Assembly: GCA_000525675.1 (NCBI GenBank)
Contig: CP002190.1
Location: 558,001 to 622,000, forward strand
DNA from: Bdellovibrio bacteriovorus W
Lineage (GTDB): Bacteria > Bdellovibrionota > Bdellovibrionia > Bdellovibrionales > Bdellovibrionaceae
Direction: 5' to 3'
DNA: 64,000 nt
How positions within the stretch are numbered: the first letter of the stretch is position 1; each line of letters starts with the position of its first letter. Of the stretch, positions 9,359 through 26,815 are shown one piece after another. Under the pieces are notes generated by a model. That model made no database searches and was not told the DNA's origin. It saw only the letters and a program-made list of their open reading frames with translations. Made by a program: the position numbers and the translations under genes.

Positions 9359-10339
9359 ATGTCAAAAATTATTGATCAAGCTTTGCGCGTTTTAGATGTT
9401 GAGGCACAAGCCATTCTAGGAATGAAAGAAAGAGTCGGAGACGACTTTGAAAAGATCGTAAAGATGATCTGCGCTTGTGATGGAAAACTAGTTATTACAG
9501 GCATGGGAAAGTCAGGGCAGATCGCGCGCAAGCTCGCATCGACCTTTTCTTCTACAGGAACTCCAGCGGTTTATCTTCATCCAGCAGAGAGTGCTCACGG
9601 TGACTTAGGGATTGTCGAGAATAACGACTTGGTGATTGCTATTTCCTACGGGGGAGAGTCGCCGGAGTTTAGTAGCATTTTGAAGTTCGTGGCTCGAAAG
9701 GGGATTCCCTTAGTGGTCATCACGGGGAAGCCTGATTCAACTATCGGAAAGGCGGGACAGCATGTGCTGAACGTTCATGTTTCCGAAGAAGCTTGTCCTT
9801 TGGGACTTGCGCCTACTGCCAGCAGCACAGCCACCCTAGCAATGGGCGATGCTATTGCGATGTCGGTGATGGCGGAAAAAGGATTTAGTTCTAATGACTT
9901 CGCTGAATTTCATCCAGGTGGAAGTTTAGGCTTTAAGCTTCTCACTCGGGTTCAAGACGTCATGCATATTGGTGAATCAATGCCTACCGTGCGCCTGACT
10001 TCGCCTCTTAAAGAGGTGTTCTCAATCATGACCTATAAGGACGTGCGCGGAGCCGCTGGGGTCGTTGATGAAAACGGAGATCTTGTGGGTGTTATTACCG
10101 ATGGACAAATTCGTCGCCGACTTGAAAAGAGTGAAGATCCTTTAACGGGTTTAGCAAGTGATTTGATGACAACAAACCCGCGAACTATCGATATCAATGA
10201 ACTGGCAGAGAAAGCACTTTTTGTTATGGAGCAATTTCAGATCAATATGCTCTTTGTTTTGGATAACTCTTCGGCTCAACCAAGAAAGCCGGTGGGGATT
10301 CTGCATGTTCAAGATCTGCTAAGAGCGAAAGTTCGTTAA
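9359..10339 (+). CDS. kdsD: Arabinose-5-phosphate isomerase (KpsF/GutQ family)
   Basis: Interconverts ribulose 5-phosphate and arabinose 5-phosphate, the first committed step towards Kdo. The protein has 326 residues: an N-terminal SIS sugar-isomerase domain (MGKSGQIARKLASTFSSTG, then HPAESAHGDLG, then ISYGGESPE) and two C-terminal CBS domains (from about residue 200), the standard architecture. It follows pyrG by six bases and ends the operon at a strong hairpin terminator. Confidence 0.95.
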   Translation: MSKIIDQALRVLDVEAQAILGMKERVGDDFEKIVKMICACDGKLVITGMGKSGQIARKLASTFSSTGTPAVYLHPAESAHGDLGIVENNDLVIAISYGGESPEFSSILKFVARKGIPLVVITGKPDSTIGKAGQHVLNVHVSEEACPLGLAPTASSTATLAMGDAIAMSVMAEKGFSSNDFAEFHPGGSLGFKLLTRVQDVMHIGESMPTVRLTSPLKEVFSIMTYKDVRGAAGVVDENGDLVGVITDGQIRRRLEKSEDPLTGLASDLMTTNPRTIDINELAEKALFVMEQFQINMLFVLDNSSAQPRKPVGILHVQDLLRAKVR

Positions 10340-11576: not shown

Positions 11577-11708
11577 ATCAACCTCGCTGACACATTCTAC
11601 ATTTCAAGGCTATTCAGTCAAATAGCTCTTGCAACCCCAAACCACCCCTTAGTCCTGTATCAATGTTGTACGCTTGCTCAGGGACTCATTAACTTTCACA
11701 ATGATTTT

Positions 11709-12209
11709 GTGGCATTAGAAATTTCAAAGTTAAAAAATATCAAGATGTTAGTCCTCGATGTGGACGGCGTGTTAACAGATACCAGAATCTGGTTTGACGG
11801 CAATGAGTGGCGTCGATTCTTTTCTATCCGCGATGGTGTAGGTATCAAGCGACTGAGTGAAGCAGGTTATAAACTTGCAGTCATTACTGGTTCGCGATCT
11901 CAAGATATTCGCGAAAGAGTGAAATCATTGGGAATTCATTACTTTTACGAAGGGGCTCTTGATAAAGGCCCTTCTTTTTTACAGTTACAAAAGGACTCAG
12001 GTTTAACGCCCGCAGAAATGGCTTACATTGGAGATGATATTTTTGACATCCCGATGATTCAAGAGTCTGCGTTTGGCGCGACAGTTCCTGAGGCAGTAGA
12101 TGAAGTGATTGAAGTTGCAGACTATGTAACTAAGCGTCCTGGAGGAATGGGCGCGGTGAGAGAAGTCTGTGATTATATTTTTAAATATGGTGCGTATTCT
12201 TCGAGGTAG
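11709..12209 (+). CDS. kdsC: 3-deoxy-D-manno-octulosonate 8-phosphate phosphatase
   Basis: A HAD-superfamily phosphatase that removes phosphate from Kdo 8-phosphate. The nucleophile motif is DVDGVLTD near the N-terminus, with VITGSRS, a conserved Lys in LDKGPSF, then IGDDIFDIPM and the family C-terminus RPGGMGAVREV. The frame is open back to 11520, inside the divergent epimerase gene, so I set the start at the GTG at 11709, which gives 166 residues, a typical length; an ATG at 11745 would leave only three residues before the catalytic strand. It heads a long run of same-strand genes with the gliding cluster seven bases downstream. Confidence 0.93.
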   Translation: MALEISKLKNIKMLVLDVDGVLTDTRIWFDGNEWRRFFSIRDGVGIKRLSEAGYKLAVITGSRSQDIRERVKSLGIHYFYEGALDKGPSFLQLQKDSGLTPAEMAYIGDDIFDIPMIQESAFGATVPEAVDEVIEVADYVTKRPGGMGAVREVCDYIFKYGAYSSR

Positions 12210-12215
12210 GTATTC

Positions 12216-12932
12216 ATGCTGAAGAATGGATTTAAGGCATTTTTTATTATCGTTCTAGCGCTGGTATTACATCGCACGGCATTTGCCGCTGAGGTGATTA
12301 ACTTGCCGCCTGAAGAGTTGGCAAAAGAGTCAGTTCTGCCGATTTTTGATAACCCAGTCAGTGTTCGCAACCGTAATGTTGTGACAACAGGGCGTTTTGA
12401 TATCGACGTTTTCTACGGATATGCAATGACAGAACCGATTGCTAACGTGAGTAAGCTGGGCTTGGGAATCTATTATCACTTGAATGAAGATCATGCCTTC
12501 GGGGTTTTCTACACGAATAACATGTCAGGCCTTTCTGACTATGCTCGCCAAATTGAGCAAGCTCCTCAGACGCCACTGGATTTATCCAAAGTCCCTCTTC
12601 CTAAAAGCTCGATCATGGGTGACTACAATCTAAAAGCTTTTTACGGGAAAATGAGTCTTACAAAATCAATCGTCCTAAATACTGTTCTTTATGGTTCAGG
12701 CTCATTGGGCATGATCCAGTACGATCATAAATCCTATCCAGCAGCTGCTTTAGGAATGGGGCAGAAGTTTTATTTCAATAAAAATTGGGCTTTGCGTTTT
12801 GACTTAAGATTGTACGCACATCAAGGGCCAGTTCCCTTTGTGGCTGGCGGAGTACCAACTTCCTTTGATCAATTTTCAGAACGTATGATGTTTACGACAA
12901 ATCTTGATGCTGGCTTGTCGTATTTATTTTAA
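12216..12932 (+). CDS. Outer-membrane beta-barrel protein, GltA/GltB-like
   Basis: A 238-residue secreted protein with a signal peptide cleaved after AFA (about residue 24). The mature part alternates hydrophobic and polar residues with Gly/aromatic-rich strands (GRFDIDVFYGYAM, LGLGIYYHLNEDHAFGVFY) and ends in LSYLF, a terminal aromatic residue as expected for a BAM-inserted barrel. Together with the next gene it forms a pair of small barrels before TPR genes, the arrangement of the GltA and GltB outer-membrane proteins of the Myxococcus focal-adhesion gliding machine. The assignment to GltA or GltB individually is not possible by reading. Confidence 0.75.
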   Translation: MLKNGFKAFFIIVLALVLHRTAFAAEVINLPPEELAKESVLPIFDNPVSVRNRNVVTTGRFDIDVFYGYAMTEPIANVSKLGLGIYYHLNEDHAFGVFYTNNMSGLSDYARQIEQAPQTPLDLSKVPLPKSSIMGDYNLKAFYGKMSLTKSIVLNTVLYGSGSLGMIQYDHKSYPAAALGMGQKFYFNKNWALRFDLRLYAHQGPVPFVAGGVPTSFDQFSERMMFTTNLDAGLSYLF

Positions 12933-12934
12933 GC

Positions 12935-13735
12935 ATGGGAAAGAGCAAAGAGATGTTACGAAAATATATAATTCTTGCGCTACTGATCTCGATTGGTTTT
13001 TCTACTGCCCAGTCAAAAGCTGCTGAGTATGATGATTTAGACGTTATCGAACTTGAACTCGATCGTTCAAAACGGGAACGTGAGACTCAAAGAAATGCTC
13101 CCACTGAGCGAGAAATGCCCAAAGAACAAATGACGGATTTTTCGGGTTTGGGAACGCTGGCTCCTTTTAGTGATATTTCAGTTATTCAAAAAAGATATAT
13201 GCCAAAAACGGGTAGATTCCAGTTGTTTGGTGGTGCGACGGTTCTTACCAATAATCCGTTTTTCAACACTCTGGGTGCCTCTGTAAAGGGAAGTTACTTT
13301 TTAACAGAGTCTTGGGGAATTGAATTGAACTATATGGGACTGACAACATCAGACCGTCAGATCACAGAAGAGTTGCGAGATATCCAAGGCGTTAAGACTG
13401 AGAACTTAGTATATCCAAAGTCTTTCATGGGCGTGGATCTTATGTTTGTGCCTATTTACGGAAAGATGTCTTGGTTCAACGAAAAGATTATTCCTTTTGA
13501 TCTATATTTTTCTGCAGGGTACGGAACTACCAATACACAAATGGGTGAAGACGTTGGAACGATTCACTTAGCTGCAGGACAAATCTTTGCTTTAAGTAAA
13601 GCCTATGCTGTTCGTTGGGACTTTAGCTGGAACTTCTTCAATGCTAAAGGAATCGATGGAAATCAGAACACCTTCAATAACTTATTCCTGACTGTGGGGA
13701 TGAGTTGGTTCTTCCCGGAGGCTAGTTACCGATGA
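12935..13735 (+). CDS. Second outer-membrane beta-barrel protein, GltA/GltB-like
   Basis: A 266-residue secreted protein. Either the ATG at 12935 or that at 12953, which has a better GGAAAG site upstream, could start it. After the signal peptide (ending near SKAA) there is a charged region of about 55 residues, then a barrel similar in style to the preceding gene: FQLFGGATVLTNNPFFNTLG, GSYFLTESWGIELNYMGL, FDLYFSAGYG and a terminal FLTVGMSWFF. The stop overlaps the ATG of the next gene, pointing to coupled translation. It is part of the glt cluster and probably pairs with the upstream barrel in the outer membrane. Confidence 0.75.
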   Translation: MGKSKEMLRKYIILALLISIGFSTAQSKAAEYDDLDVIELELDRSKRERETQRNAPTEREMPKEQMTDFSGLGTLAPFSDISVIQKRYMPKTGRFQLFGGATVLTNNPFFNTLGASVKGSYFLTESWGIELNYMGLTTSDRQITEELRDIQGVKTENLVYPKSFMGVDLMFVPIYGKMSWFNEKIIPFDLYFSAGYGTTNTQMGEDVGTIHLAAGQIFALSKAYAVRWDFSWNFFNAKGIDGNQNTFNNLFLTVGMSWFFPEASYR

Positions 13736-15285
13736 AAAAACTTCTATTACCAGTCCTTCTTGCTAGCTTAGTCGTGCCAATGGCGTCTTCTGCACAGAGG
13801 AATCGCCAAGCTCCACGCAAAGCTCCCGTTTCTAACAGAGATACAGGGGCGCGCTCGCAATTGAGCAATGCTCTGCGCTTGGCTCAAAGCGGGCAGTACG
13901 AGGCTGCGGCTAACAATCTATTCACACTTTCTCGCCGCTCTGAATTGGCTGCCGAGAGACCGCAAATTAAATATATTCTGGGAACGATGTTGATGGAGCT
14001 GAAGCTTTATCAAACTGCTGCTTTCCAGTTCGTTGATGTGATTCGCTCAAAGCATCCAAAGTATTCTAAGATGGCGATCGAAAAGCTGTCTTTAGCTGCG
14101 GATATTCTAGGTGATGATACGATCCTAAATTATGCAATCTCTAAGGTGAATGTTAACGATTTCCCAGCGAGCATGCGTGATATGCTGAATTTCCGCTTAG
14201 GGGAGATTAAGCTGCGCGACCGCGCCTTTGCCTCTGCGGCGGATCACTTTTCTAAAGTAGGTTATAACAGCAGTTATTATTACCCAGCTCTTTACAGCAA
14301 AGGACTTGCGGAGCTTGAGGCTAATAAGCCTAATCTAGCTATTTCTACATTCAATCGTATGTTGGATTCTCGTCGTCGTGCTCCGGTGACAGATACCAAT
14401 CGTGTTTCTGCGCAGATGGGTTTGGCACGCGCGCTCTATCAGCGTCAAGACTGGGATTCGGCGATTCAAGCTTATGCAGAAGTTCCTAGAGACACTCTGG
14501 CATGGCATGATGCCGTTTTTGAATCGAGCTGGGCGATGTTGCGTTCGGCTCGCTTTAGATCAGCTTTGAGTAACTTTCAGACTCTCCACTCGGCATATTA
14601 TGAAGACTTTTATATGCCGGAGAGTTTATTACTTCGCGCTATCGTTTACTTATATATCTGTAAGTATGATGAGATGGATAAAGTCTTAAATCTTTTTGAA
14701 AGAACGTATGGACCGATCCGCACGAAAATTGGCGAGTTCATCCGTACGGCTCCAGATGCCAATGCTTATTATTTAGAAATTGAAAAGGCGCTTTCAGGAA
14801 AGACAACAAAGCGCACGGGAAATCTTCGATTGCCTTATATAGTGGTCAAGAACGTTTCCGAGCAAGGTGATGTGAAGAGATCACTTCACTATCTATCTAA
14901 AATTGAAGAAGAAAGACATCGCCTTGAAACAAGTCCTGTTTTTAGAGCCACGCCTATTGCGCAATATGCGCTGAAGGTTCTAAACAATCGTACGCGAAAT
15001 ACGAAAATCGCTATTGGTGATATGATGAAGGCTCATTTGCAGAATATGCGTGCGGATCTAAAGGATCTGTATGAGCAAGCTGGCTTCATCCGTTACGAAA
15101 TGATCACGGGCAAAAAAGACAGCATCAAAAAGAAAATTGCGGGTCGTGAGACTGAACAGATCGATGACAAAATTGATCGTAAGTTCTTTATTGAAAATGG
15201 GTATGAGTATTATCCGTTCCAAGGCGAGTATTGGCTCGATGAAGTTGGGAATTACCATTACTTAGGAAAACAAAGTTGCGAGTAA
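13732..15285 (+). CDS. gltC: Periplasmic TPR protein, GltC-like
   Basis: A 517-residue protein with a signal peptide (MKKLLLPVLLASLVVPMASSA) and several tetratricopeptide-like repeats between about residues 40 and 290 (ALRLAQSGQYEAAANNLF, LYSKGLAELEANKPNLAISTF, LARALYQRQDWDSAIQAYAEV). The C-terminal third is charged and ends YWLDEVGNYHYLGKQSCE with a lone Cys near the end. GltC of the gliding machine is a soluble periplasmic partner of the GltA/GltB barrels; position directly after the barrel pair supports this. It overlaps both neighbours by a few bases. The name rests on synteny and domain type, not on a sequence comparison. Confidence 0.65.
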   Translation: MKKLLLPVLLASLVVPMASSAQRNRQAPRKAPVSNRDTGARSQLSNALRLAQSGQYEAAANNLFTLSRRSELAAERPQIKYILGTMLMELKLYQTAAFQFVDVIRSKHPKYSKMAIEKLSLAADILGDDTILNYAISKVNVNDFPASMRDMLNFRLGEIKLRDRAFASAADHFSKVGYNSSYYYPALYSKGLAELEANKPNLAISTFNRMLDSRRRAPVTDTNRVSAQMGLARALYQRQDWDSAIQAYAEVPRDTLAWHDAVFESSWAMLRSARFRSALSNFQTLHSAYYEDFYMPESLLLRAIVYLYICKYDEMDKVLNLFERTYGPIRTKIGEFIRTAPDANAYYLEIEKALSGKTTKRTGNLRLPYIVVKNVSEQGDVKRSLHYLSKIEEERHRLETSPVFRATPIAQYALKVLNNRTRNTKIAIGDMMKAHLQNMRADLKDLYEQAGFIRYEMITGKKDSIKKKIAGRETEQIDDKIDRKFFIENGYEYYPFQGEYWLDEVGNYHYLGKQSCE

Positions 15286-18200
15286 TTATGAAGTTAAGAA
15301 GTCACCATGCAGTCATCACCACGTTTTTAGTAGCTTCCTTTGTGACTCCATCTTTGGAGGCACAAAATAAAAATACTCGTGGACAGAAAAAAACTGTCGA
15401 GCAGCTATTGTCTCAAGCACGCGATACAAATCGCGGAGCTCGAGTGCAAATGTCTAAGACAGACACTGCGCTGCCATCATCTAGTTTGGGATTTAAGCAG
15501 CAAAATGTGACTCCTTATAACTTAAACTCGGTTAAGCCTCCACGCTCTTCAGAGATCGTGAATCACGCACCTGGTGATAATAAGGCTGAGTACGAAAGAA
15601 TTCTCGATCAACAGATTGATGAGCTCTATAAACTGACTCAGAGATTTAAAACAAGCCCTAATCGTGGTGAGTTGTGGCTGCGTCTGGCAGAACTTTATGT
15701 TGAAAAAGCAGGTATCATAGATGCTCGTAGCCAAGATGCTTACGATGCACAACTTCGTGCTTTTCAATCTGGAAAAACGAAAGTTCGCCCTAAGTTAAAT
15801 ACAACTAGAGCACGTGAGTACAATCGTAAAGCTGTTCAGCTTTACGAATGGTTCCAGAGAGACTTCCCGCGTGATCCGAAGATGAGTCAGGCACTCTTTT
15901 TCTTGGGATTTAACTACTTTGAGTTAGGGGATGTGAAAAAAGGGGCCGCTTATTACGACCGCCTTGTTAAAGACTACCCTCGTTCAAACTTTGTTGGGGA
16001 AGCAAGATTTGCGCTTGCCGAGTACTACTTTGAAAATGAAAAGTGGGCACAAGCTTATAAAGAATACTCTCCATTGATTAAAGAAAAGAATCATAGACTG
16101 CACACCTTTGCTCTTTATAAAGGGGCCTGGTGTTTGTTCCGTCTAGGTAAAACCAATCAAGCTATGAACTACCTTGAATACATCATTAAAGATGGCAAGG
16201 CAGAAACAGGTGATGAGTTAGCTGGGAAAAGAGTTGTTAACCGCACAAAGCTTGAAGGTGAGGCTTTGCGCGATATCGTTGTTTTCTATGCAGAAGGTGG
16301 AAGCCCGCAAAGAGCCGCTTCTTACTTTAGAGATCTCGTAGGCGATGCAAATAGCTATGCTTACCTAGAGAGACTTGCTTATCAATATTCTGATCGTGGC
16401 AATAAAGATGCGTCTCGTGAGGTTTTTAAACATCTGATCGCCCAGAATCCTACGGCGGCTAAGTCTTTCGATTTCCAGTATCAAATCGTTCAAGACTATT
16501 TCTATGCTAAAAATACGTCGCGCTTTAAGACAGAGCTTTATGGGTGGATCAAAGACTATGATTCCTCGAGTCCTTGGTACAATGCCAATAAGGGCAATAA
16601 AGAGTTGATTGAAAACTCTTATAAGTTACGCGAGACGACGTTAAGAAACTACGTTTTGCAACAACATCAAACAGCACAAAACTCGCGTGCGGCTTTCTCT
16701 CAAGGGCAAGCAAATGATGGTTATCAACTTTATTTAAGATCATTCCCAGATTCAGCACTTGTTGGCGATATGCACTTTTACTACGGTGAGTTGCTCTACG
16801 ATATGGGTAAATTTGATGAGGCGGCTATCCAGTATAAATGGGTTGTGGACAATGCTCCTCAGAATAAGTTTTATAGCAAGTCAGCTCAAAACCTTATCTT
16901 GGCAGTTGAGCGTAGCATTCCTTCCGATGAAGAAATGCAAAAACGAGTGGGTAATAGCTTAGATCCAATTCCTCTTGAACCTAAAGTCGATCGCTTTATT
17001 AAGTCAGGTCACTGGTACATCGAGAAATTCCCGCAGTCTGAGAAGTCTGTTGAAATTAAATTTAGAATTGGTCGCCTATATTATCAAAGCAATCACTTTG
17101 ATGAGGCTAGCAAGTACTTCCGTGAAATCGTTCAAGAAAGTCCTAAAACTAAGTACGCCGAGTATTCTGCTAACTTGCTTTTGGATATATACAACTTGAA
17201 AAAAGACTATGTTGGACTTGAGAAAACAGCCGGCGAACTATTGGCCGTACCAGCTATTGCAGGCTCTAAAGCCGGTGATGATATTCGTGGCGTTTTAGAA
17301 AATGCGTCCTTTAAGCGTGGGCAAGATCTAGAGGGCCAAAAGAAATATGCTGAAAGTGCTCAGGTCTTTGATTCATTCGCAAAACAAAATCCGACTTCTA
17401 AGTTAGCGACTTCGGCACAGTTTAATGCCGGTGTGAACTTTGAAAGAGCTGGCATGAATGCGGCAGCGATTGCTTCTTATCAAACGGTTTTAAATTCAAA
17501 AGCAGCCGACTCTGCAGAGGTCCGAGCAAAGGCACGTCGTCTATTGGCAAAGCAGTATCAAGATTCTGCTCAGTTTGAAGAGGCAGCAAAACTGTATCTG
17601 CAATCAGCTAAAGAGAACCCTAAAGATCCGCTTTCAACAAATATGATGTTCAACGCGGCTATCTTGTATGAAGCTCTGGGAAAATCAAATGATGCGATTC
17701 GTGCGTTCACAGAATTTACGACATTGAATAAGAAGCAGGCTGATAACGTTGAGGTCCTTTTCAATATGGCACAAATTCATCGCAAAGCAGGGCAGAACTC
17801 AGCGGCGATTGGCAAATACACCGAATACATTGAAAAAGGTGGGCGTAGCCAAGAAAAGGTTGTTGAGAGTGCTTACTGGGTGACGGAGTTGAATCGACGT
17901 CAGAAAGCGATCACTAAGTCCAATGAGTGGCGTCTAAAAACGTTATCCATTCAAAAACGTTTTGCACCAAATGGAAAGGGTGTCGGAGCGGGTTTTGCTG
18001 CGAAGTTAAAGCTTGAAGATGCTCAGCAAACTTTCAATGAAATGAAGGCTGTGACTTTCCCTGCAGATCCTGCAAAACAAAAAGCAGCTGCGGATAAGAA
18101 GATCGCTCTTTTAACAAAGCTCAACTCGCAATTGGCGGAAGTGATTAAGTTTGATAGCGCAGAAGAAATCGTGAGCTCTTTAAGTATTTTGGGTGAAGCC

Positions 18201-18485
18201 AATCAGAATATGGCGAACTCTCTAATTTCTGCGCCACTCCCTCCAGGGCTTAACGCTGAGGAAACCAAACAATATAAGGCGGGCGTTCAAGGCTTTGCAG
18301 AGCCGTTCAATGCCAAGGCCCGTGATAGCTTCAAATTGGCAGTTGAACGTGGTTGGGAGCTTGAAGTTTATAGCTCTTATTATCGCAACGCACTTGCCTA
18401 CATGAATAAGATTGATCCGAAGACTTATTATGACAATGGCGAACAGGCTGCAGAGATTCGTTTAATTAACTGGATAGGTCAGTAA
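15276..18485 (+). CDS. gltD: Large periplasmic TPR protein, GltD-like
   Basis: A 1069-residue exported protein, almost entirely helical repeats. After a signal peptide and a low-complexity segment, TPR units recur from about residue 110 to 900 (LWLRLAELYVEKAG, QALFFLGFNYFELGDVKKGAAYYDRL, KYAESAQVFDSFAKQNPTS, NMMFNAAILYEALGKSNDAI). GltD (AgnA) of Myxococcus is a similarly large TPR protein encoded just before gltE, as here. It is thought to form part of the periplasmic link between the inner-membrane motor and the outer membrane. The ATG may be 15276 or 15288; the latter is the first Met after the overlap with gltC. Its stop overlaps the next ATG. Confidence 0.7.
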   Translation: MRVIMKLRSHHAVITTFLVASFVTPSLEAQNKNTRGQKKTVEQLLSQARDTNRGARVQMSKTDTALPSSSLGFKQQNVTPYNLNSVKPPRSSEIVNHAPGDNKAEYERILDQQIDELYKLTQRFKTSPNRGELWLRLAELYVEKAGIIDARSQDAYDAQLRAFQSGKTKVRPKLNTTRAREYNRKAVQLYEWFQRDFPRDPKMSQALFFLGFNYFELGDVKKGAAYYDRLVKDYPRSNFVGEARFALAEYYFENEKWAQAYKEYSPLIKEKNHRLHTFALYKGAWCLFRLGKTNQAMNYLEYIIKDGKAETGDELAGKRVVNRTKLEGEALRDIVVFYAEGGSPQRAASYFRDLVGDANSYAYLERLAYQYSDRGNKDASREVFKHLIAQNPTAAKSFDFQYQIVQDYFYAKNTSRFKTELYGWIKDYDSSSPWYNANKGNKELIENSYKLRETTLRNYVLQQHQTAQNSRAAFSQGQANDGYQLYLRSFPDSALVGDMHFYYGELLYDMGKFDEAAIQYKWVVDNAPQNKFYSKSAQNLILAVERSIPSDEEMQKRVGNSLDPIPLEPKVDRFIKSGHWYIEKFPQSEKSVEIKFRIGRLYYQSNHFDEASKYFREIVQESPKTKYAEYSANLLLDIYNLKKDYVGLEKTAGELLAVPAIAGSKAGDDIRGVLENASFKRGQDLEGQKKYAESAQVFDSFAKQNPTSKLATSAQFNAGVNFERAGMNAAAIASYQTVLNSKAADSAEVRAKARRLLAKQYQDSAQFEEAAKLYLQSAKENPKDPLSTNMMFNAAILYEALGKSNDAIRAFTEFTTLNKKQADNVEVLFNMAQIHRKAGQNSAAIGKYTEYIEKGGRSQEKVVESAYWVTELNRRQKAITKSNEWRLKTLSIQKRFAPNGKGVGAGFAAKLKLEDAQQTFNEMKAVTFPADPAKQKAAADKKIALLTKLNSQLAEVIKFDSAEEIVSSLSILGEANQNMANSLISAPLPPGLNAEETKQYKAGVQGFAEPFNAKARDSFKLAVERGWELEVYSSYYRNALAYMNKIDPKTYYDNGEQAAEIRLINWIGQ

Positions 18486-19333
18486 TGAAAAAGTATTTAA
18501 TGTCCTTAAGTATTCTTGCGTTGGCTGGGTGTTCTTCGACGGGCTCGAAGCAGGCTGGAGAAGCGCCGGCACCGGTACTCTCGGTGAGCGAAGCTCCTGA
18601 GCTTACACCAGAAGGTAAAAAGGCTTTAGCTGACGAACCAGTAAGGCCCCCAGTGAAGGTACAACCTTCTCAATACGATGCTTTGAATGAAGCAATAAAG
18701 ATTCAAAGTGATGACAAAATCTACGCGGCGGCCACGCACATTCTGACGCAAACACCAGAAGATGCGAAGGCTTTGAATGCTCTGGCAATGTATCACTATA
18801 AGCGCAGTCGCTTTGATTTGGCGAAGTACCTTTTGAATAAGGCACTGACTGGTAACCCTCGGATGGCAGAACTCTACTCTAACTTAGGTGTTGTTCACTT
18901 GGCGCAATCAGAGCAACGCGAAGCTATCCAAGCTTTCCGCAAAGCTCTGGAGATCAACCGTGATGATGTTGTGGCGTCATCAAACCTTGGTGCCATTTAC
19001 GTACAAGAAAAGGATTTTGTGAAAGCAGAAATCGTTCTTGAGGTGGCGTACCGCCGTGGCGTTCGAGATGCGCGTGTTTTGAATAACTATGCCGTGGCTC
19101 TTGCTGCCAGAGGAAAGTCTGCTAAGGCTGAAGAAGTCTATAAAGCTTTACTCAAAGACAATAGCAATTTGAAAGAAGGTCTCTTTAACTACGCTATTCT
19201 CTTAGTTGAGAATATGGGGAAGTATGCAGAGGGTTTAGAGGTAATTAACAGACTAAAGTTTGTAGGTGGGCCTGCAGATAGCAGGAATAAAATTATTGCT
19301 TTGGAAAATAAGGCGAAAGCTGGTTTAAAATAG
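18485..19333 (+). CDS. gltE: TPR lipoprotein, GltE-like
   Basis: A 282-residue lipoprotein: MKKYLMSLSILALAGCSS has a clear lipobox (LAGC), with Ser after Cys, suggesting outer-membrane sorting. A proline-rich stretch (about residues 25-65) leads to four or more TPR repeats (AKALNALAMYHYKRSRFDLAKY, AELYSNLGVVHLAQSEQREAI, ASSNLGAIYVQEKDFVKAE, VLNNYAVALAARGKSAKAEE). GltE (AglT) is the TPR lipoprotein of the gliding apparatus and follows gltD in Myxococcus. The start ATG overlaps the gltD stop by one base (TAATG). Confidence 0.75.
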   Translation: MKKYLMSLSILALAGCSSTGSKQAGEAPAPVLSVSEAPELTPEGKKALADEPVRPPVKVQPSQYDALNEAIKIQSDDKIYAAATHILTQTPEDAKALNALAMYHYKRSRFDLAKYLLNKALTGNPRMAELYSNLGVVHLAQSEQREAIQAFRKALEINRDDVVASSNLGAIYVQEKDFVKAEIVLEVAYRRGVRDARVLNNYAVALAARGKSAKAEEVYKALLKDNSNLKEGLFNYAILLVENMGKYAEGLEVINRLKFVGGPADSRNKIIALENKAKAGLK

Positions 19334-19350
19334 ATAAAGGGAATCTTTAG

Positions 19351-19629
19351 ATGAGTACTTGGCGATTTTTATTAAACATTTCATTTGTCTTCGCAATTGG
19401 AATTATTGCGCAGCTATCTATTGCCCAAGATTCTGCTAAGACAGAAAGAAAAGCGACGTTGAGCTTTGAAGATGAATTGATCGAGGGATCTACTCAGAAA
19501 CCCGATTTGTTTTATCTCTTCCAAAAGAAGAACTTCAACTACAACAAGCTTATTAAAATGAGAGAAAATTTTTTACCCGAGATGAGACGTTCAACAGAAG
19601 ATATTCAGCGAGTTCGGGGTGGTAATTGA
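19351..19629 (+). CDS. gltF: Small GltF-like membrane or exported protein
   Basis: A 92-residue protein with one N-terminal hydrophobic segment (about residues 6-24; signal peptide or anchor) and a conserved-looking body: a short strand LSFEDELIEGSTQKPDLFYLF followed by L..MRENF..EM. The pattern strand, then EGxxxxP, then an L..R..F element resembles GltF of Myxococcus, which lies between gltE and gltG as here. It has no catalytic signature and may be a small structural subunit. Its TGA overlaps the TTG start of gltG. Confidence 0.6.
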   Translation: MSTWRFLLNISFVFAIGIIAQLSIAQDSAKTERKATLSFEDELIEGSTQKPDLFYLFQKKNFNYNKLIKMRENFLPEMRRSTEDIQRVRGGN

Positions 19630-21803
19630 AAGCGCCTTTAATATTTCGAATCTTTAAAAACAATCAACTAGTTGGTGTGAAGCAGTTCGATCTGGATCAG
19701 ATCGTGATTGGTCATAATGCCGACGTCAGTTTAGATCTTGAGTCGGATGAGATTTCCCCGATTCACTGTCTGATTGAGCTCCGAGACAATGGTTACTATA
19801 TCTGTGACCTTGGTTCTGCGACGGGGACCTTTAAAAACGGCCAAGCTGTTTTAGATGAGGCAATTTCATCAGGTGATGAAATTGAGTTGGGTCCTTACAA
19901 GCTTGCTTTCTTCGTTGGTGTTCCAAAGCCTCAAGTGGCTCCGAATGCAGGAGAGACTGCAGCACCAGTTGTTGAGGTAAAGCCAGTGACTGCGGCAAAG
20001 ACAGAGAAGTCTGCGCCTATGCCACCGGCAGCCGTTGTTAAAACGGAAGAAATTAAAGTTGAGCCTGTAGTTATTCCTCCTCAGATAGTTGAAGAGGAAC
20101 CTAAAAAAGAGGTTTCAGCTCCAGTAATACCGGCAGCGGTTCCATTCACGCTTCAGACTGAAACTGTGAAGGATGATAGGCCGACAATCACTGCGGCTCC
20201 TGTAAAGCCTGAAATTAAAAAAGATAGATCTGCTTACAAGAAACAAAAGACGGCGAAGACTTTTGCTCCGCCTAGTGAGATTGCGGATCTTAAATGTCAT
20301 CTAAAGCCAGGCAAGGGTGCTACAGTTGAAGTTCTAGTTGCTTGGAAAGAGCGCGTTCTTACAACGTATCATTATAAAAACGGTGATATTGCCCGTGTAA
20401 ACTCTGGCGATAAGGCAATTGCTTTACCAGATGGCATGACTCCGAAAGCCTTTCCTCTGATCGATAACTCTAAAGGTCTTAAAGTTAATACGACTGCAGG
20501 CATGAAGGTTGAGTTGGTCACAGCCAAAGCGACTCAATCCTTAGAGGAGCTTGAGTCCAATGGTAAAGCGCAAAGGGGAGGACAAGGTCACTCCATTCGC
20601 GTCGACCAGCATGAAATGCTCGTGGTTCATTTGCCAGGAGATAATTTAGTTCTTTATGTTCGTTTTGTACCTCAGGCACCTATTGTTCCTGTGATTCCTC
20701 TGATGCTTTCAGGTTCAGAGATGACAGGCTTAGTGATGTCGATCATTTTGGTGAGTTTGCTGGCACTCTATATTTCAGCAACAACACCAAAGAACTGGCA
20801 GGAGAACAAGCAGGAGGAAGTTCAGCGTATTGCGCAGGTGATTTTCAATCCGCCTCCGCCACCTGCTGAGCCAAAACCGACTCCTCCACCTCCTCAGCCG
20901 CCGCCACCACCGCCTGAGAAAACGCCACCGCCTCCGCCACAGCCTCCAAAAAAGGTCGTTGTTGCAGATAAGACTAAAGAGGCTCAGAAAAAAGGCCCTG
21001 TGTCTCAAGGGGGGCAGAAAGCTCAACTGGCAGGAAGAGCTGCTGAAGTTGCGCCAAAACCAAATGCACAAGATCGCACGAAGAAGTTTACTTCTACTCG
21101 TCAAGGTGGCGCGATTAAAACAGGAAACTCAGAAGGAGCCAATGCTCAGTCTGCGAATAAAGACTTATCAAAAGTCGGCTTATTCAGTGCCTTCGGGGGC
21201 GGTGGAAGTCGTGCGAATATTGATAAAGCATACTCGGGAGCAGGTGAAGTTTTAGGGATGGCTGATAAGGCCTCCGGAGCTTCTGGTTTCAATCAAGACA
21301 GAGCGGGTGATGATTTAGGATCACGCTTTAAAGACTCGGGTGCTGGCGGAAAAGGTACAGCTACTGAGGGGATTGCAGGCATTGGCACAAAAGGTAGAAG
21401 TACAGGGCAGTCCGCTTACGGCTCAGCAGATGGTTTTGGAAACAAAACAACTGTGGCGGTTGAAGGTGGCGGCTTTGAAGAATCTTTTGATGGAACTATT
21501 GATAAAGAAGCTATTCGTCGAGTGATTCGCGCGAAGAAACATGAACTTCAAAGCTGTTATGAGCGTGCTCTTAACTCGTTGGCAAAAGGTCAGCGCCTTG
21601 AAGGTAAAATTGTTCTTTCATGGGATATTATCGAGCGTGGCCAAGCAAGAAATGTAAAAGTAAAGAGTTCGACTTTGGATAATCGCCAAGTTGAATCTTG
21701 TATTCGTGACAGGCTGGCAAGTTGGACATTCCCAGAGCCGCCTCCAGGAATGGTGGCAGAAGTCCAAGCGTATCCGTTTGTTTTGAATGCAACTAGTAAT
21801 TAA
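19626..21803 (+). CDS. gltG: GltG-like gliding protein: FHA, membrane segment, Pro-rich linker and AgmX/PglI C-terminal domain
   Basis: A 725-residue inner-membrane protein starting at a TTG that overlaps the gltF stop. Residues about 20-95 are an FHA domain (IGHNADVSLDLESDEISPIHC, then LGSATGTFKNG). A Lys/Pro/Val-rich linker and an unassigned domain follow, then one membrane helix (about 362-386), a proline tract of the TonB type (about 408-443), a Gly/Ala/Ser-rich stretch and the AgmX/PglI C-terminal domain (about 623-722) with its two Cys residues (LQSCYERAL and VESCIRDRL). This is the domain order described for GltG, which spans the periplasm from the AglRQS motor side. The cytoplasmic FHA end could read Thr phosphorylation. 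Confidence 0.85.
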   Translation: MKAPLIFRIFKNNQLVGVKQFDLDQIVIGHNADVSLDLESDEISPIHCLIELRDNGYYICDLGSATGTFKNGQAVLDEAISSGDEIELGPYKLAFFVGVPKPQVAPNAGETAAPVVEVKPVTAAKTEKSAPMPPAAVVKTEEIKVEPVVIPPQIVEEEPKKEVSAPVIPAAVPFTLQTETVKDDRPTITAAPVKPEIKKDRSAYKKQKTAKTFAPPSEIADLKCHLKPGKGATVEVLVAWKERVLTTYHYKNGDIARVNSGDKAIALPDGMTPKAFPLIDNSKGLKVNTTAGMKVELVTAKATQSLEELESNGKAQRGGQGHSIRVDQHEMLVVHLPGDNLVLYVRFVPQAPIVPVIPLMLSGSEMTGLVMSIILVSLLALYISATTPKNWQENKQEEVQRIAQVIFNPPPPPAEPKPTPPPPQPPPPPPEKTPPPPPQPPKKVVVADKTKEAQKKGPVSQGGQKAQLAGRAAEVAPKPNAQDRTKKFTSTRQGGAIKTGNSEGANAQSANKDLSKVGLFSAFGGGGSRANIDKAYSGAGEVLGMADKASGASGFNQDRAGDDLGSRFKDSGAGGKGTATEGIAGIGTKGRSTGQSAYGSADGFGNKTTVAVEGGGFEESFDGTIDKEAIRRVIRAKKHELQSCYERALNSLAKGQRLEGKIVLSWDIIERGQARNVKVKSSTLDNRQVESCIRDRLASWTFPEPPPGMVAEVQAYPFVLNATSN

Positions 21804-21860
21804 TTTTTAAATACGACTGACAAAGTTAGCAGTTGTAATAAGTTTTTAAGGAGGAGTTCC

Positions 21861-22526
21861 GTGAACCCAACAGCAGCAGTAGACAACATGAATTTCATCC
21901 AGCGTGCTTTCGCTGAGGGTGGTTTCGTCATGTACATTATCGCGGTTATAGGTATTTTAGCCCTATTCGTGATCGTGGATAGATTGATGAAAATGAAAAA
22001 CCTTTCAGTGGATAAAAAAGAATTCACGGATCAGGTATTCCGTATGGTTGTAGCGGGCGATATCCGCCAAGCAATCAGCTATTGCGATGCTCGTCCAGCT
22101 CCTCTTACAAACACTGTGAAAGCAGGGTTGGTTCAGGCGATGAATAAGCGCCCTGACGAAGAAGTACAAGTAGCTATGGATGCAGCAGTTATGCGTGAGA
22201 TGCCGAGAGTTGAGGGTTGGACTTCATTCTTAGCAGTTTTTGGTAACGTTGCGGTACTTGCGGGTCTTCTAGGAACGATCATCGGTATGATCGGTTCATT
22301 CCGTGCGGTTGCAGCGGCTGACCCAGCGACAAAAGCTTTAGAACTTTCTAAAGGTATTTCACATGCCTTGAACTGTACGGCTTTTGGTCTTTTAGTAGCG
22401 ATCATTTCAATCGTTGCTTATGGTCTTTTCCAACATCGCATTCAGCAAACAGAGAATGAAGTTGTTGAAACAAGCATGAGTCTTTTGAACTTGGTTGTTG
22501 CGAACAGAGATAAAATTAAAGACTAG
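21861..22526 (+). CDS. aglR: AglR-like motor protein (TolQ/ExbB/MotA family)
   Basis: A 221-residue proton-channel subunit with three membrane segments (about residues 18-38, 115-140 and 158-180) and the family signature GLLGTIIGMIGSF. It starts at GTG with a very strong AAGGAGGAG ribosome binding site, stronger than its neighbours, consistent with the high TolQ:TolR ratio of such motors. Two TolR/ExbD-type genes follow directly. In Myxococcus AglR with AglQ and AglS forms the proton-driven motor of focal-adhesion gliding; the location right after gltG supports that role over Tol-Pal or ExbBD. The 57-base gap before it may hold a weak internal promoter. Confidence 0.85.
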   Translation: MNPTAAVDNMNFIQRAFAEGGFVMYIIAVIGILALFVIVDRLMKMKNLSVDKKEFTDQVFRMVVAGDIRQAISYCDARPAPLTNTVKAGLVQAMNKRPDEEVQVAMDAAVMREMPRVEGWTSFLAVFGNVAVLAGLLGTIIGMIGSFRAVAAADPATKALELSKGISHALNCTAFGLLVAIISIVAYGLFQHRIQQTENEVVETSMSLLNLVVANRDKIKD

Positions 22527-22543
22527 TTCAGTCGAGGTTAAAA

Positions 22544-23014
22544 ATGGCTCAAATTGAGGGCGGAAAAGGCAGACAAAGGAATATCGAGTTAAACCTCGTT
22601 CCCTTTATCGATTTGATGAGCGTACTTATTACGTTTCTTCTTATCACTGCCGTTTGGACCCAAGTTTCGATGATTCAAATTGGTAGCTCACTTTACGGTA
22701 AGAAGTCTGAATCTCAGCCATCTCCGACTCCTCCTCCGAATGCGGACGTGGTTTTGAAAGTGGATGTAAAGGAAGGCGGCTACGTATTAACAGTTGGAAG
22801 ACAGATTATCAGTCTGCCAATGGTTGATAATCAATTTGATGAAGAGGGCTTGGTGGCTCAACTTCAAAGAGTGAAGCAGCTTTATCCAGAAAAAGTAGAT
22901 GCTGTAGTGAGCGTTGCTGACGTGATTCCGTATGAACAGTTGATTCGTGCAATGGATAACTGTCTCTCCGCGGGGTTCTCAGCGATCTCTGTTGCAACAG
23001 GGGGGCCTAACTAA
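22544..23014 (+). CDS. aglQ: AglQ-like motor subunit (ExbD/TolR family)
   Basis: A 156-residue protein with one N-terminal membrane helix carrying the proton-binding Asp23 in LVPFIDLMSVLITFLL, the ExbD/TolR signature, and a periplasmic C-terminal domain preceded by a short proline tract. It follows aglR by 17 bases and its stop TAA overlaps the ATG of the next gene. The aglQ/aglS labels follow the usual order aglR-aglQ-aglS; the two could be exchanged. Confidence 0.75.
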   Translation: MAQIEGGKGRQRNIELNLVPFIDLMSVLITFLLITAVWTQVSMIQIGSSLYGKKSESQPSPTPPPNADVVLKVDVKEGGYVLTVGRQIISLPMVDNQFDEEGLVAQLQRVKQLYPEKVDAVVSVADVIPYEQLIRAMDNCLSAGFSAISVATGGPN

Positions 23015-23604
23015 TGGCAATTTTTAGACCTGGTGAGAGACATCGTTATCACAATATTTTAAGTAAAAGAAAAGGTAAGAGAGACGTTACCGCATTGCTG
23101 TCGCTAACTGCGATGGTCGATATGTTTACCGTTCTTGTGATCTTTCTTTTGCAAAACTACAATACAACGGGTGAGATTCTTTACATTCCGAAGGAAGTCG
23201 TACTTCCGAAGGCAAGCAGCGTTCGAGAATTGAAGCCTTCTCATGTTGTGACGATTTCAAATAAAGAAGTGTTGCTCGACAAAACGGCTGTCGCTTCGTA
23301 CGACGACGTCTTGGCTGCTGAGGATTGGAATCTTGAGGGATTGAAGACTCAGTTACAAGAGGCTTTGGCTCAGTCTAAAGCAGAGCAGGAAAGCAAACTG
23401 CAACACAAAATTCGCGACGCTGTAGAGTCGACTCGTGGTGAGACTGATGAAGATCCGAATCAATGGAGCAAGGTGACCATTCAAGCTGACAAAGATGTGG
23501 ATTTTCTTACGATCAAAAAAGTACTTTATACGGTGACTGAAGCTGGAGCTGGTGAAATTAATTTCGCAGTGACTAAAGTCGTTCAAGAATCGACTTCCAA
23601 CTAA
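23014..23604 (+). CDS. aglS: AglS-like motor subunit (ExbD/TolR family)
   Basis: A 196-residue second ExbD/TolR-type protein. The membrane helix includes Asp36 (TAMVDMFTVLVIFLL). The periplasmic part is longer than in AglQ, with a charged Gln/Glu/Lys stretch at about residues 110-140 that is probably coiled coil. Two different ExbD-like subunits with one TolQ-like subunit is the AglRQS composition and differs from a standard TolQRA or ExbBD set. The last gene of the gliding block, followed after 23 bases by LPS-export genes on the same strand. Confidence 0.75.
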   Translation: MAIFRPGERHRYHNILSKRKGKRDVTALLSLTAMVDMFTVLVIFLLQNYNTTGEILYIPKEVVLPKASSVRELKPSHVVTISNKEVLLDKTAVASYDDVLAAEDWNLEGLKTQLQEALAQSKAEQESKLQHKIRDAVESTRGETDEDPNQWSKVTIQADKDVDFLTIKKVLYTVTEAGAGEINFAVTKVVQESTSN

Positions 23605-23627: not shown

Positions 23628-24647
23628 ATGTCAAAATATAAGAACCTCATATTCATAGCATTGTTAGCGATACTATTCGTTGAGGTTCTTATTATCTTCC
23701 CCTCGAAATTAGAACATGAAGATGAAGCTGAAGTTCGTGCTCGTGTCGAGGCTCAGAAGCAAGAGCAAAGAGTTGAACAGGAGCGGCTTGCAAACGGTGG
23801 CAAGCCCCGTGAAAGTGACAACTTAGCTGAGCAAAAAATGGAAGGTGTCCATCTGGTTGAAAGCCAGCAAGGGACAAGGGATTGGGAGCTTTTTGCCAAG
23901 GCCGCTGAAGGCAGTCACAATGCGGGCAACTGGAAACTCAGTGATGTAAAAGTCTATTTTTACAACAATGAGAAGGTTGAATTCACGGTGACAGGGGACA
24001 CGGGTTCGATTGATGCGAAATCTAAAGACTTAAGTATCATAGGTAATGTAGTAACTAAATCCGAGAATGGATATTCATTTAAAACTCCTTCGGTCTTTTA
24101 CTCCTCAGATAAACGCATCATCACAAGCCCTCAAGAAGTGATCATGCAGGGGCCGAGAGATAAGGCAACTCATGGCATGAGTTTAAAGGGACAAAGGATG
24201 CAAGTCTTTGTTGATCAGTCTAAAATGGTTATCAAAGATAAAGTTTCTGCAACAAAGCCGGAAAAAGACGGCAAGAGTATCCAAGTTGTTGCAGATGGGG
24301 CCGAGTTTAGCGGTAGAAATCGGGAAGCTAAATTTTTAGGCTCTGTAAGAATGAGTTATGACAATATGAAGTTGGAAGGGCCCGAGGCTTCTTTCGTTTA
24401 CAGTAAAGCAACAGACATTTTAGACTCTATCCGTATTAACGGGGGAGTGAAGGTCAGCGATGTGGATAAATTTGCCACTGCTGAAAGTGTTAATTTTGAT
24501 TTATTATCAGATCAGTATGTTTTCAAAGGACGCCCTAAGGTCATCCAGGGAAATGACGAACTCACTGGCGAAGAAATTGTTTTCTTAGACGGTGGAAAGA
24601 AAGTTCGTGTGGACCGAGTTCGTGCGAAAGTGGAGAATAAAGATTAA
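23628..24647 (+). CDS. LPS export protein, LptC-LptA fusion
   Basis: A 339-residue bitopic protein with an N-terminal membrane helix (about 7-23), a charged linker (30-70), an LptC-like periplasmic beta-jellyroll (about 75-190) and a second jellyroll of OstA/LptA type (about 200-335; [21 protein letters not shown], then [21 protein letters not shown]). LptC is normally about 190 residues and LptA about 180 and separate, so this looks like a fusion that would build the first part of the periplasmic LPS bridge in one chain. The neighbouring lptB supports the function. The stop overlaps the lptB ATG. Confidence 0.8.
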
Positions 24648-25369
24648 TGAGCCTATTGACGATTCAAAACATTTCCAAAACGTATAAAAAGCGACAAGTT
24701 GTAGGTGGGGTTTCCTTCTCAGTAGAATCCGGGCAAGTTGTGGGGTTGTTAGGTCCCAATGGTGCCGGAAAGACCACTTCTTTCTATATGGTTGTTGGTT
24801 TGGTTCAATCCGATTCAGGCTCGATTCAGATTGATGAGCTCGATATTTCTAAAGAGCCAATGTATAAGAGAGCCCGCGTAGGCCTTTCCTATTTAGCTCA
24901 AGAACCGAGTATTTTCCGCAAGCTGACCGTCTCTGAGAATATTATTGTTGCACTAGAGGCGCATGGATATTCTGGCTCGCAACGAGCGGAGCGTCTTGAG
25001 CAATTGATTGCTGATTTTAAAATTGGTCATATCCGAGATAGTTACGGATATGCACTGTCTGGTGGTGAGCGCCGTCGTGTTGAGATTGCACGTGCACTTG
25101 CTGGAGAACCAAAATTTTTATTATTGGACGAACCCTTTGCGGGAATTGACCCAATTGCGGTTGCAGACATTCAAGGAATTATTCTCGAGCTTAAGGCCAA
25201 AGGTATAGGAGTTTTGATCACCGATCATAACGTTCGTGAGACTTTAGGCATTTGCGATTATGCTTATATTCTAAAGGATGGTAAAATCCAAGTGAGCGGA
25301 AGCTCCGACGAAATTGCAAATTCTGATGTTGCCCGTAAGTTTTACCTGGGCGAGAACTTTAAACTTTAA
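24647..25369 (+). CDS. lptB: LPS export ABC transporter ATP-binding protein
   Basis: Cytoplasmic ATPase of the LptB2FG extractor that drives lipopolysaccharide from the inner membrane into the periplasmic bridge. The 240-residue protein has Walker A GPNGAGKT, a Q-loop in LAQEPSIF, signature [15 protein letters not shown], Walker [14 protein letters not shown], and the H-loop His in [11 protein letters not shown]; the phrase [12 protein letters not shown] is characteristic of LptB. It starts one base into the stop of the LptC-LptA gene and precedes rpoN by 12 bases, the conserved lptB-rpoN-hpf order of proteobacteria. Confidence 0.95.
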
Positions 25370-25381
25370 GAAAGGACTTTC

Positions 25382-26815
25382 ATGGCTTTACGACAGACGA
25401 TGAACCTGAGTCAGTCTCTGGTCATCACTCCACAGCTTCAGCAGGCGATTAAGTTACTTCAGATGTCGCGTATGGAGTTGGAGACTGCTGTTCGTTCTGA
25501 GCTTGAAGAAAATCCAATTCTTGAAGAAGCAGAAGTTCTTAGAGAAGAAGATATTCAACGCACAAAAGAAGCTTCTACAGATGTTGAACACTCTGAAGCT
25601 CCAGCCTCCCAAGACGTGCAAGATCCCCAAAAACAAGATGAATTCGAATGGGAAAGTTACATTGAGGCCAATCAAAAACCGCCTCAATCAGGTATGGCAG
25701 GTTCCGAAGAAATCATGAACTATGAGAACGTCATTACGGCTTCTCAAACTCTTCATGATCATCTTTATTGGCAAGTTAAAATGAATGGCTTTTCTGAAGA
25801 AGAAGAGTTAGCCGCTGATGCGCTGATTGGTGCCATTGATGATGATGGTTACATCAAAACTCCCCTTGAACAGATTGCAGAAGAAGAAAAAGTAGAGTTA
25901 GGTCTTTTAGAAGACACTCTGACTTTGATTCACGAGTTTGATCCTCCAGGTGTCGGTGCGCGAAATTTACGAGAGTGCCTTTTAATTCAGGCTAAGCATC
26001 TTGAAGAAGATACCCACGACCTTGTTAATCTCATCAACAATCACCTCAAAGAGCTTGAAAAAAAGAACTACGAAGCGATTGCTAAGGCATTAAATAAAGA
26101 TGTCGAAGACGTTATTGAGATGTGTAAAATTATTTACGCCATGGACCCGAAGCCGGGACGTGCGTTCGTTAGCAACGACACTCACTATGTTTCTCCAGAT
26201 GTTTATGTGTATAAGGTTGGGGATGACTATGTAGTCTCTTTAAATGAAGATGGTTTGCCACGTTTAAAGATTTCTAACTTTTATAAAAACATGCTGAAGA
26301 GTGGTCGTTCGACGGGTGATAAAACGCAAGACTACATTCAAGAAAAGCTTCGTTCTGCAGTTTGGTTGATTAAATCCATCCACCAAAGGCAGCGTACGAT
26401 TTATAAAGTTGCAGAGTCGATCGTAAAGCATCAATTAGAGTTCTTTGAAAAAGGCTCAGAGTTCTTAAAGCCAATGGTTTTAAGAGATATCGCCAACGAT
26501 ATTGGGATGCATGAATCTACGGTCAGTCGTGTTACAACGGCTAAGTACATGCACACTCCGCAAGGGATTTACGAGCTGAAATACTTCTTCAACTCCGGCA
26601 TCAGTTCTTCGGATGGGGATTCTTTAGCCAGCGAATCGGTCAAAATTAAAATCAAAGATCTTGTTGCTAAGGAAAATCCAAAAAGTCCACTTTCCGATCA
26701 GAAGATAGTCGATCTGCTGAAGCAAGATGGAATTCAAATTGCGCGTAGAACGGTTGCTAAATACCGTGACGTTCTAAAGATACTCCCATCGTCTCAACGC
26801 AAAAAATACTTCTAA
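25382..26815 (+). CDS. rpoN: RNA polymerase sigma-54 factor
   Basis: Alternative sigma factor that needs AAA+ activators such as the protein at 4997-6226. The 477-residue product has the Gln/Leu-rich region I (MNLSQSLVITPQLQQAIKLL), an acidic region II (about residues 45-105), the core-binding domain, the helix-turn-helix (DIANDIGMHESTVSRVTTAKY) and the RpoN box written ARRTVAKYR near the C-terminus, which contacts the -24 element. The usual SMRREF-type end is replaced by PSSQRKKYF. The stop is the left edge of a large inverted repeat. Confidence 0.97.
   Translation: MALRQTMNLSQSLVITPQLQQAIKLLQMSRMELETAVRSELEENPILEEAEVLREEDIQRTKEASTDVEHSEAPASQDVQDPQKQDEFEWESYIEANQKPPQSGMAGSEEIMNYENVITASQTLHDHLYWQVKMNGFSEEEELAADALIGAIDDDGYIKTPLEQIAEEEKVELGLLEDTLTLIHEFDPPGVGARNLRECLLIQAKHLEEDTHDLVNLINNHLKELEKKNYEAIAKALNKDVEDVIEMCKIIYAMDPKPGRAFVSNDTHYVSPDVYVYKVGDDYVVSLNEDGLPRLKISNFYKNMLKSGRSTGDKTQDYIQEKLRSAVWLIKSIHQRQRTIYKVAESIVKHQLEFFEKGSEFLKPMVLRDIANDIGMHESTVSRVTTAKYMHTPQGIYELKYFFNSGISSSDGDSLASESVKIKIKDLVAKENPKSPLSDQKIVDLLKQDGIQIARRTVAKYRDVLKILPSSQRKKYF

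Follow-up and report, generated by a model that had tools for sequence, protein, structure and literature searches.

The gliding motor of Bdellovibrio was still called unidentified in a 2026 review (PMC13104615). B. bacteriovorus W carries, within the 64,000 nucleotides of its genome analyzed here (the window), ten consecutive genes that a preliminary description read as an Agl-Glt locus and as a minimal complete surface-gliding machine. Do these genes encode the gliding machine of this predator, or do they form one of several related machines with another task at the cell envelope?

Gene content and order of the glt-agl block

The run GltA-B-C-D-E-F-G-AglR-Q-S lies at positions 12216-23604 in the list of open reading frames, all on the plus strand, and the intervals between neighboring genes from GltA to AglS measure -4 to +57 bases. 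The near-gapless, co-directional layout of the preliminary description was thereby confirmed, and so were the gene identities claimed in it, since profile searches match each protein to Glt/Agl profiles or families. The first two genes encode outer-membrane beta-barrels of the GltA type (12216..12932) and the GltB type (12935..13735), which match OMP_myx_plus (TIGR04565) with 125.8 and 126 bits at a curated NCBIfam cut-off of 60 bits. They are followed by the periplasmic TPR protein GltC (13732..15285; NF033756, 189.7 bits), the large periplasmic TPR protein GltD (15291..18485; TPR families), for which an earlier TTG is present at 15276, and the TPR lipoprotein GltE (18485..19333), which has a weak match to NF033758 (44.7 bits) and a lipobox, LAGC, read from the sequence. 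The small exported protein GltF/CglF (19351..19629) matches NF033764 with 45.1 bits. GltG, the coupling protein (19626..21803), combines a degenerate FHA domain (Pfam FHA), one transmembrane helix and a TonB-like AgmX/PglI C-terminal domain, with 241 bits to NF033760 and 100.6 bits to NF033768; the curated cut-off for the AgmX/PglI C-terminal domain is 40 bits. The motor genes stand in one order at the end of the run: AglR, a TolQ/ExbB-type subunit (21861..22526; Pfam MotA_ExbB and trees), and two ExbD-type subunits (Pfam ExbD), AglQ (22544..23014) and AglS (23014..23604). The Glt equivalog models of NCBIfam are myxobacterial, and the Glt matches of the window are significant yet stay under their curated cut-offs, as expected for a host from another phylum. 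Gene order is identical in all 28 related loci in which all ten genes were found and is therefore far beyond chance.

The published counterpart in HD100 and its distribution

One genome in our sample (G037) was taken as B. bacteriovorus HD100 by inference. Its agl/glt sets lie at 0.39, 0.79, 1.39 and 2.28 Mb, positions that fit the published order Bd0412-0420, Bd0828-0838, Bd1473-1483 and Bd2368-2377 (PMC2797640). The window block corresponds gene for gene to the set at 0.79 Mb and is, as judged by gene content and order, the ortholog of Bd0828-Bd0838. Both blocks lie between kdsC and lptC-lptB-rpoN and have ten identically ordered orthologs in common, AglR is 93-94% identical and GltC, GltD and GltG are about 75% identical, and we see no difference of substance between them. 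Luciano et al. described four agl/glt sets in Bdellovibrio in 2011, reported GltH, I, J and K to be absent and named Bd0828-0838 as the best candidate gliding apparatus (PMC3169522). The single-block arrangement lacking GltH/I/J/K was thus already in print for HD100 in 2010-2011 (PMC2797640, PMC3169522). The preliminary description was correct in its observation and identification of a locus of a published type, and its statement that the Myxococcus equivalents are split among three loci agrees with the M. xanthus arrangement (PMC3169522).

For the distribution of the block, a window-type AglR was scored as present at a best E value below 1e-60. Of the 61 family genomes sampled, 58 have it; the three others are one genome of 94% completeness and two incomplete ones (54% and 79%). 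Every one of the 17 genomes listed from the rest of the order has it too. Identity beyond the order is at most 47%. One complete genome on a single contig (G002) has only the window-type set at the threshold used; we take it to be, probably, that of P. exovorus, an epibiotic predator. A complete and apparently epibiotic relative with the window-type set only is new, so far as the literature searched shows. A plasmid origin of the block was also considered and rejected, as GltG has no match in plasmid records. Some family members (G019 and G049, loci L158 and L159) contain another, distinct glt-agl block. Its AglR shares 44-46% identity with that of the window, and its GltD falls together with a third Myxococcus set.

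Embedding in the LPS operon

The glt-agl genes neither begin nor end the run in which they stand, since kdsC lies 6 bp upstream of the block and lptC 23 bp downstream, and both extend it. The upstream members are KdsD, an arabinose-5-phosphate isomerase (9359..10339, plus strand; Pfam SIS and CBS) that holds the same upstream place in relatives, and the KDO-8-P phosphatase KdsC (11592..12209, plus strand, start provisional; Pfam HAD hydrolase), which is the gene directly before GltA in 24 of the 34 loci that could be tested. Downstream, on the same strand, follow LptC (23628..24647; Pfam LptC, LptD_N), the ABC ATPase LptB (24647..25369; Pfam ABC_tran and position) and sigma-54, RpoN (25382..26815; Pfam Sigma54 domains). 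In E. coli, kdsD-kdsC-lptC-lptA-lptB-rpoN-hpf is continuous, whereas in the window the ten-gene block is placed between kdsC and lptC. Two further features of the flanks were noted. A GlcNAc 2-epimerase-family gene runs antisense between kdsD and kdsC (10419-11576, minus strand), two genes that nearly touch in several relatives, and the LptC protein carries LptC and LptA/LptD-N domains together, a natural LptC-LptA fusion.

In most members of the order that were sampled, the block lies inside a kdsD-kdsC-[glt-agl]-lptC/A-lptB-rpoN operon. The next matched gene upstream is kdsC or kdsD in 31 of 34 testable relative loci, the next one downstream is lptC in 35 of 39 loci (lptC-lptB-rpoN in 33/39), and a link on at least one side occurs in all seven sampled families of the order. 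Median gaps are -1 for kdsC-gltA and 55 for aglS-lptC; in several members outside the family the block lies 0.8 to 3.6 kb before lptC. The conserved neighborhoods indicate that the glt-agl genes are an ancestral part of the LPS-biogenesis operon, and the short gaps suggest that they are co-transcribed with it. Consensus scans for internal promoters (22, against 28.2 in shuffles, sd 5.7; no excess) and for terminators (22 against 17.8, sd 3.7; no clear excess) are near shuffle level and hence silent on transcript ends. We found no earlier report of this embedding in the literature searched, which is not the whole literature, and it appears unreported.

Whether the location means anything for function is, in our view, an even question. 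The block may have landed there once in an ancestor and been kept for a borrowed promoter, which would be compatible with the function that we propose below. The link can be broken, as loci of f5 (two), f2 (one) and f1 (one) keep the block and have no lptC downstream within the stretch examined. Nearly all other loci of the seven families nevertheless keep the link on one side or both, a persistence that a borrowed promoter would also allow.

Phylogeny of the motor

TolQ/ExbB-type motor subunits invite confusion with Tol-Pal and Ton energisers, which belong to the same TolQ/ExbB and TolR/ExbD families. AglR and AglQ of the window do score on the TolQ, TolR, ExbB and ExbD models, though far under the cut-off. 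It is nonetheless scarcely conceivable that the motor genes are those of a common Tol-Pal or Ton energiser beside which unrelated TPR and barrel genes happen to lie. In the AglR tree the proteins of the window, the other sets and the Myxococcota form one group, split from TolQ/ExbB at 100/100 by a branch of 2.21 changes per column. The window motor has two ExbD-type subunits and seven Glt-type neighbors, and tolQ-tolR-tolA-tolB and exbB-exbD occur as separate loci elsewhere in its genome. The tree and these separate loci rule out a Tol-Pal or Ton identity.

In the combined tree of AglR, AglQ and AglS, the window set groups, along with its orthologs across the order, with AglRQS of Myxococcus, Corallococcus and Anaeromyxobacter and with copy 1 of Sorangium (87/86), so that the phylogenetic check proposed with the preliminary description, Tol-Pal against AglRQS, came out for AglRQS. 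The Myxococcus reference was Myxococcus sp. CA023, found through its MglA, which matched the query at 100%. The grouping of the window set with Myxococcus AglRQS is moderately supported, and an AU test of the tightest grouping (p 0.147) is neither proof nor rejection. The Bd1473-type motor falls with AglX-type sets at 100/99, and the Bd0412- and Bd2368-type sets stand apart from the window set. This tree agrees with that of Luciano et al., who used other genomes (PMC3169522). In Minicystis and Sorangium, a gliding-type and an AglX-type AglRQS set were found back to back (L145:9466-14123 and L146:6741-11612).

Missing components and the FHA domain of GltG

Compared with the M. xanthus Agl-Glt machinery (clusters G1, G2 and M1), the window genome has homologs of GltA-G and AglRQS, both motor Asp residues and a genomic MglA (65% identity); the genes occupy one locus here and three there. 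The preliminary description had no GltH/I/J in sight, and for GltH and GltJ searches of the window genome that detect both in Myxococcus bear this out: GltH had no match (454 bits in the Myxococcus control), and the GltJ model hit only fragments of GltG-like proteins with at most 29 bits (561 bits in the control). GltI and GltK are absent from HD100 (PMC3169522). According to Luciano et al., GltH and GltJ are later recruits that are essential in Myxococcus and lie outside the core (PMC3169522). We therefore speak of a core Agl-Glt set and not of the full Myxococcus machine.

A further difference lies in the FHA domain of GltG. Its His is kept, while Arg occupies the first conserved position in only 9/40 orthologs. 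At the second conserved Arg, that of Ser-Arg, 30/40 have Pro and none has Arg; Myxococcus GltG keeps both GR and SR. With the canonical residues lost, phosphothreonine binding by window-type GltG is doubtful. This bears on a suggestion that phosphorylation could activate the forkhead domains of gliding regulators in Bdellovibrio (PMC10482364). So far as the literature searched shows, this loss has not been described before.

Paralogous sets and motor residues

The preliminary description saw in the block a minimal complete surface-gliding machine, and this part of it was not upheld. The 3.007 Mb genome contains two further agl/glt sets, of the Bd0412 type (L025) and the Bd1473 type (L026), and the window block is therefore neither the sole set nor a proven minimal complete glider. 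No adhesin gene was found within the ten-gene block. Like the window block, the two other sets comprise a motor, GltD-, GltG- and GltC-like proteins and a barrel; they differ in having only one barrel each and an extra VWA-like lipoprotein gene nearby, and GltE was sought in both and found in neither. The VWA assignment is marginal by Pfam in L025 and was read from the sequence, with no Pfam support, in L026. Besides its four sets, HD100 contains an orphan GltB-C-F-A module at 3.49 Mb; in the window genome three sets were found, and searches of it gave neither a Bd2368-type set nor the module. Between GltG and the barrel of the Bd0412-type set there is a 462-aa lipoprotein of no recognized family (L025:8631-10019, minus strand). 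One of the two sets carries a GYF-PilZ protein: at the start of its aglR, the Bd1473-type set has an overlapping gene for a GYF_2 and PilZ protein (L026:15375-15986, minus strand; C1 at about 1.052 Mb) that is kept in HD100. It is a candidate link from cyclic dinucleotides to the Bd1473-type motor.

The Bd1473-type set is the main competitor for the role of gliding motor. We consider it rather unlikely, though the strongest alternative, that this set drives gliding proper and that the window set, as an envelope machine similar to Nfs, serves prey attachment or handles surface polymers or LPS. In HD100 a surface-induced gene annotated aglQ is bd1480 (PMC9140294), and a biofilm-predation screen hit two genes of Bd1473-1483 (PMC2797640). 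The VWA-like lipoprotein genes adjoining both other sets fit the same idea, since the M. xanthus adhesin CglB is a VWA protein (PMC13104615). The residues of the motor argue against it. A D28N exchange in M. xanthus AglQ abolishes proton conductance and motility (PMC3858216). Asp23 of window AglQ aligns with D28 and is Asp in 40/40 orthologs, as is Asp36 of window AglS. The Bd1473-type AglQ (L026:14090-14635, minus strand; L196:15844-16401) has Ala instead (PLLAVM in the D28 column) in the window genome, in HD100 and in Tiberius (G006); its AglS keeps the Asp, and the motor could work with this residue alone. Eleven HD100 open reading frames fit Bd1473-Bd1483, and by gene count the Asp-less AglQ is therefore Bd1480, in line with the published aglQ annotation (PMC9140294). 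The surface-induced gliding marker hence belongs to a motor that lacks the AglQ Asp, a feature that is new as far as the literature searched shows. Its position in the tree, with AglX-type sets and not with M. xanthus AglRQS, speaks against the alternative as well.

Glt or Nfs

An Nfs-like role receives some weight from the Glt proteins themselves, which are about as close to Nfs as to Glt and thus not clearly nearer to gliding than to sporulation. An order profile of GltD finds Corallococcus GltD with 484 bits and Myxococcus NfsD with 483 bits; GltF is slightly nearer to Nfs, GltG is nearer to Glt, and GltC, GltD and GltE are about even. Trees of GltC, GltD and GltG have long branches and do not decide between the two. 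As both are about equally distant, sequence alone is silent on what is moved. The Nfs spore-coat machinery of M. xanthus, which uses the AglRQS motor, likewise has such a part list in one gene run; the window block differs from it in having its own motor genes, and the trees do not place it inside Nfs.

A proposed trans-envelope machine

Established here for the window-type set are homology, motor residues, gene order, operon layout and conservation, and others have shown for its ortholog that it is needed for prey attachment. A transposon mutant of Bd0838, the ortholog of AglS, loses prey attachment, killing and rounding, and Bd0836 is likewise required for predation (PMC6561027); by position, Bd0836 is probably AglR. 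The directly known phenotype of the ortholog is thus not gliding, which counts against the minimal-glider claim and in favor of an attachment machine. The location inside an LPS operon in most members sampled also favors an envelope machine of this kind. On balance we favor, with a probability of roughly two in three, the reading that the block is the Bdellovibrionales form of the Agl-Glt machine, a proton-driven, trans-envelope device that exerts surface traction on prey and other surfaces. Protons would pass AglR together with the AglQ/AglS pair (Asp23 and Asp36), and the motor would act on the membrane protein GltG, whose TonB-like end would reach the periplasm. AglR binds GltG in M. xanthus (PMC3169522), and by analogy we infer the same coupling here. 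GltC, GltD, GltE and GltF may then relay the motion through the periplasm to GltA and GltB. At these barrels a surface component, an adhesin or a surface polymer, would be moved or presented, giving traction. The force path through GltG to GltA/B is deduced in this way, and so is the assignment of gliding to the window-type set rather than to a paralogous one. Against this reading stand the absence of GltH and GltJ, essential in M. xanthus, the lack of an adhesin gene in the block and the membership of the surface-induced HD100 aglQ in another set.

The comparison singles out one paralogous set as near-universal and with a complete proton path, while the set that supplies the marker bd1480 is without the AglQ residue that M. 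xanthus needs. We see the value of the analysis in the location of the block inside the LPS operon, in its presence nearly throughout the order and in the lack of the AglQ Asp in the competing set. A force-generating machine inside an LPS-export operon also suggests where to seek what the machine holds. It is unlikely that the machine is functionally tied to LPS export in the sense that its genes stayed in the kds-lpt-rpoN operon because it grips or moves LPS-borne surface material or must be built in step with the outer membrane, with this ancestral set, and not the surface-induced Bd1473 set, as the universal contact and traction motor.

The orphan GltB-C-F-A module of HD100 (L205:6755-10079) has no motor genes and is nearest to the window set. 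It may borrow a window-type motor, in analogy to Nfs, which borrows AglRQS.
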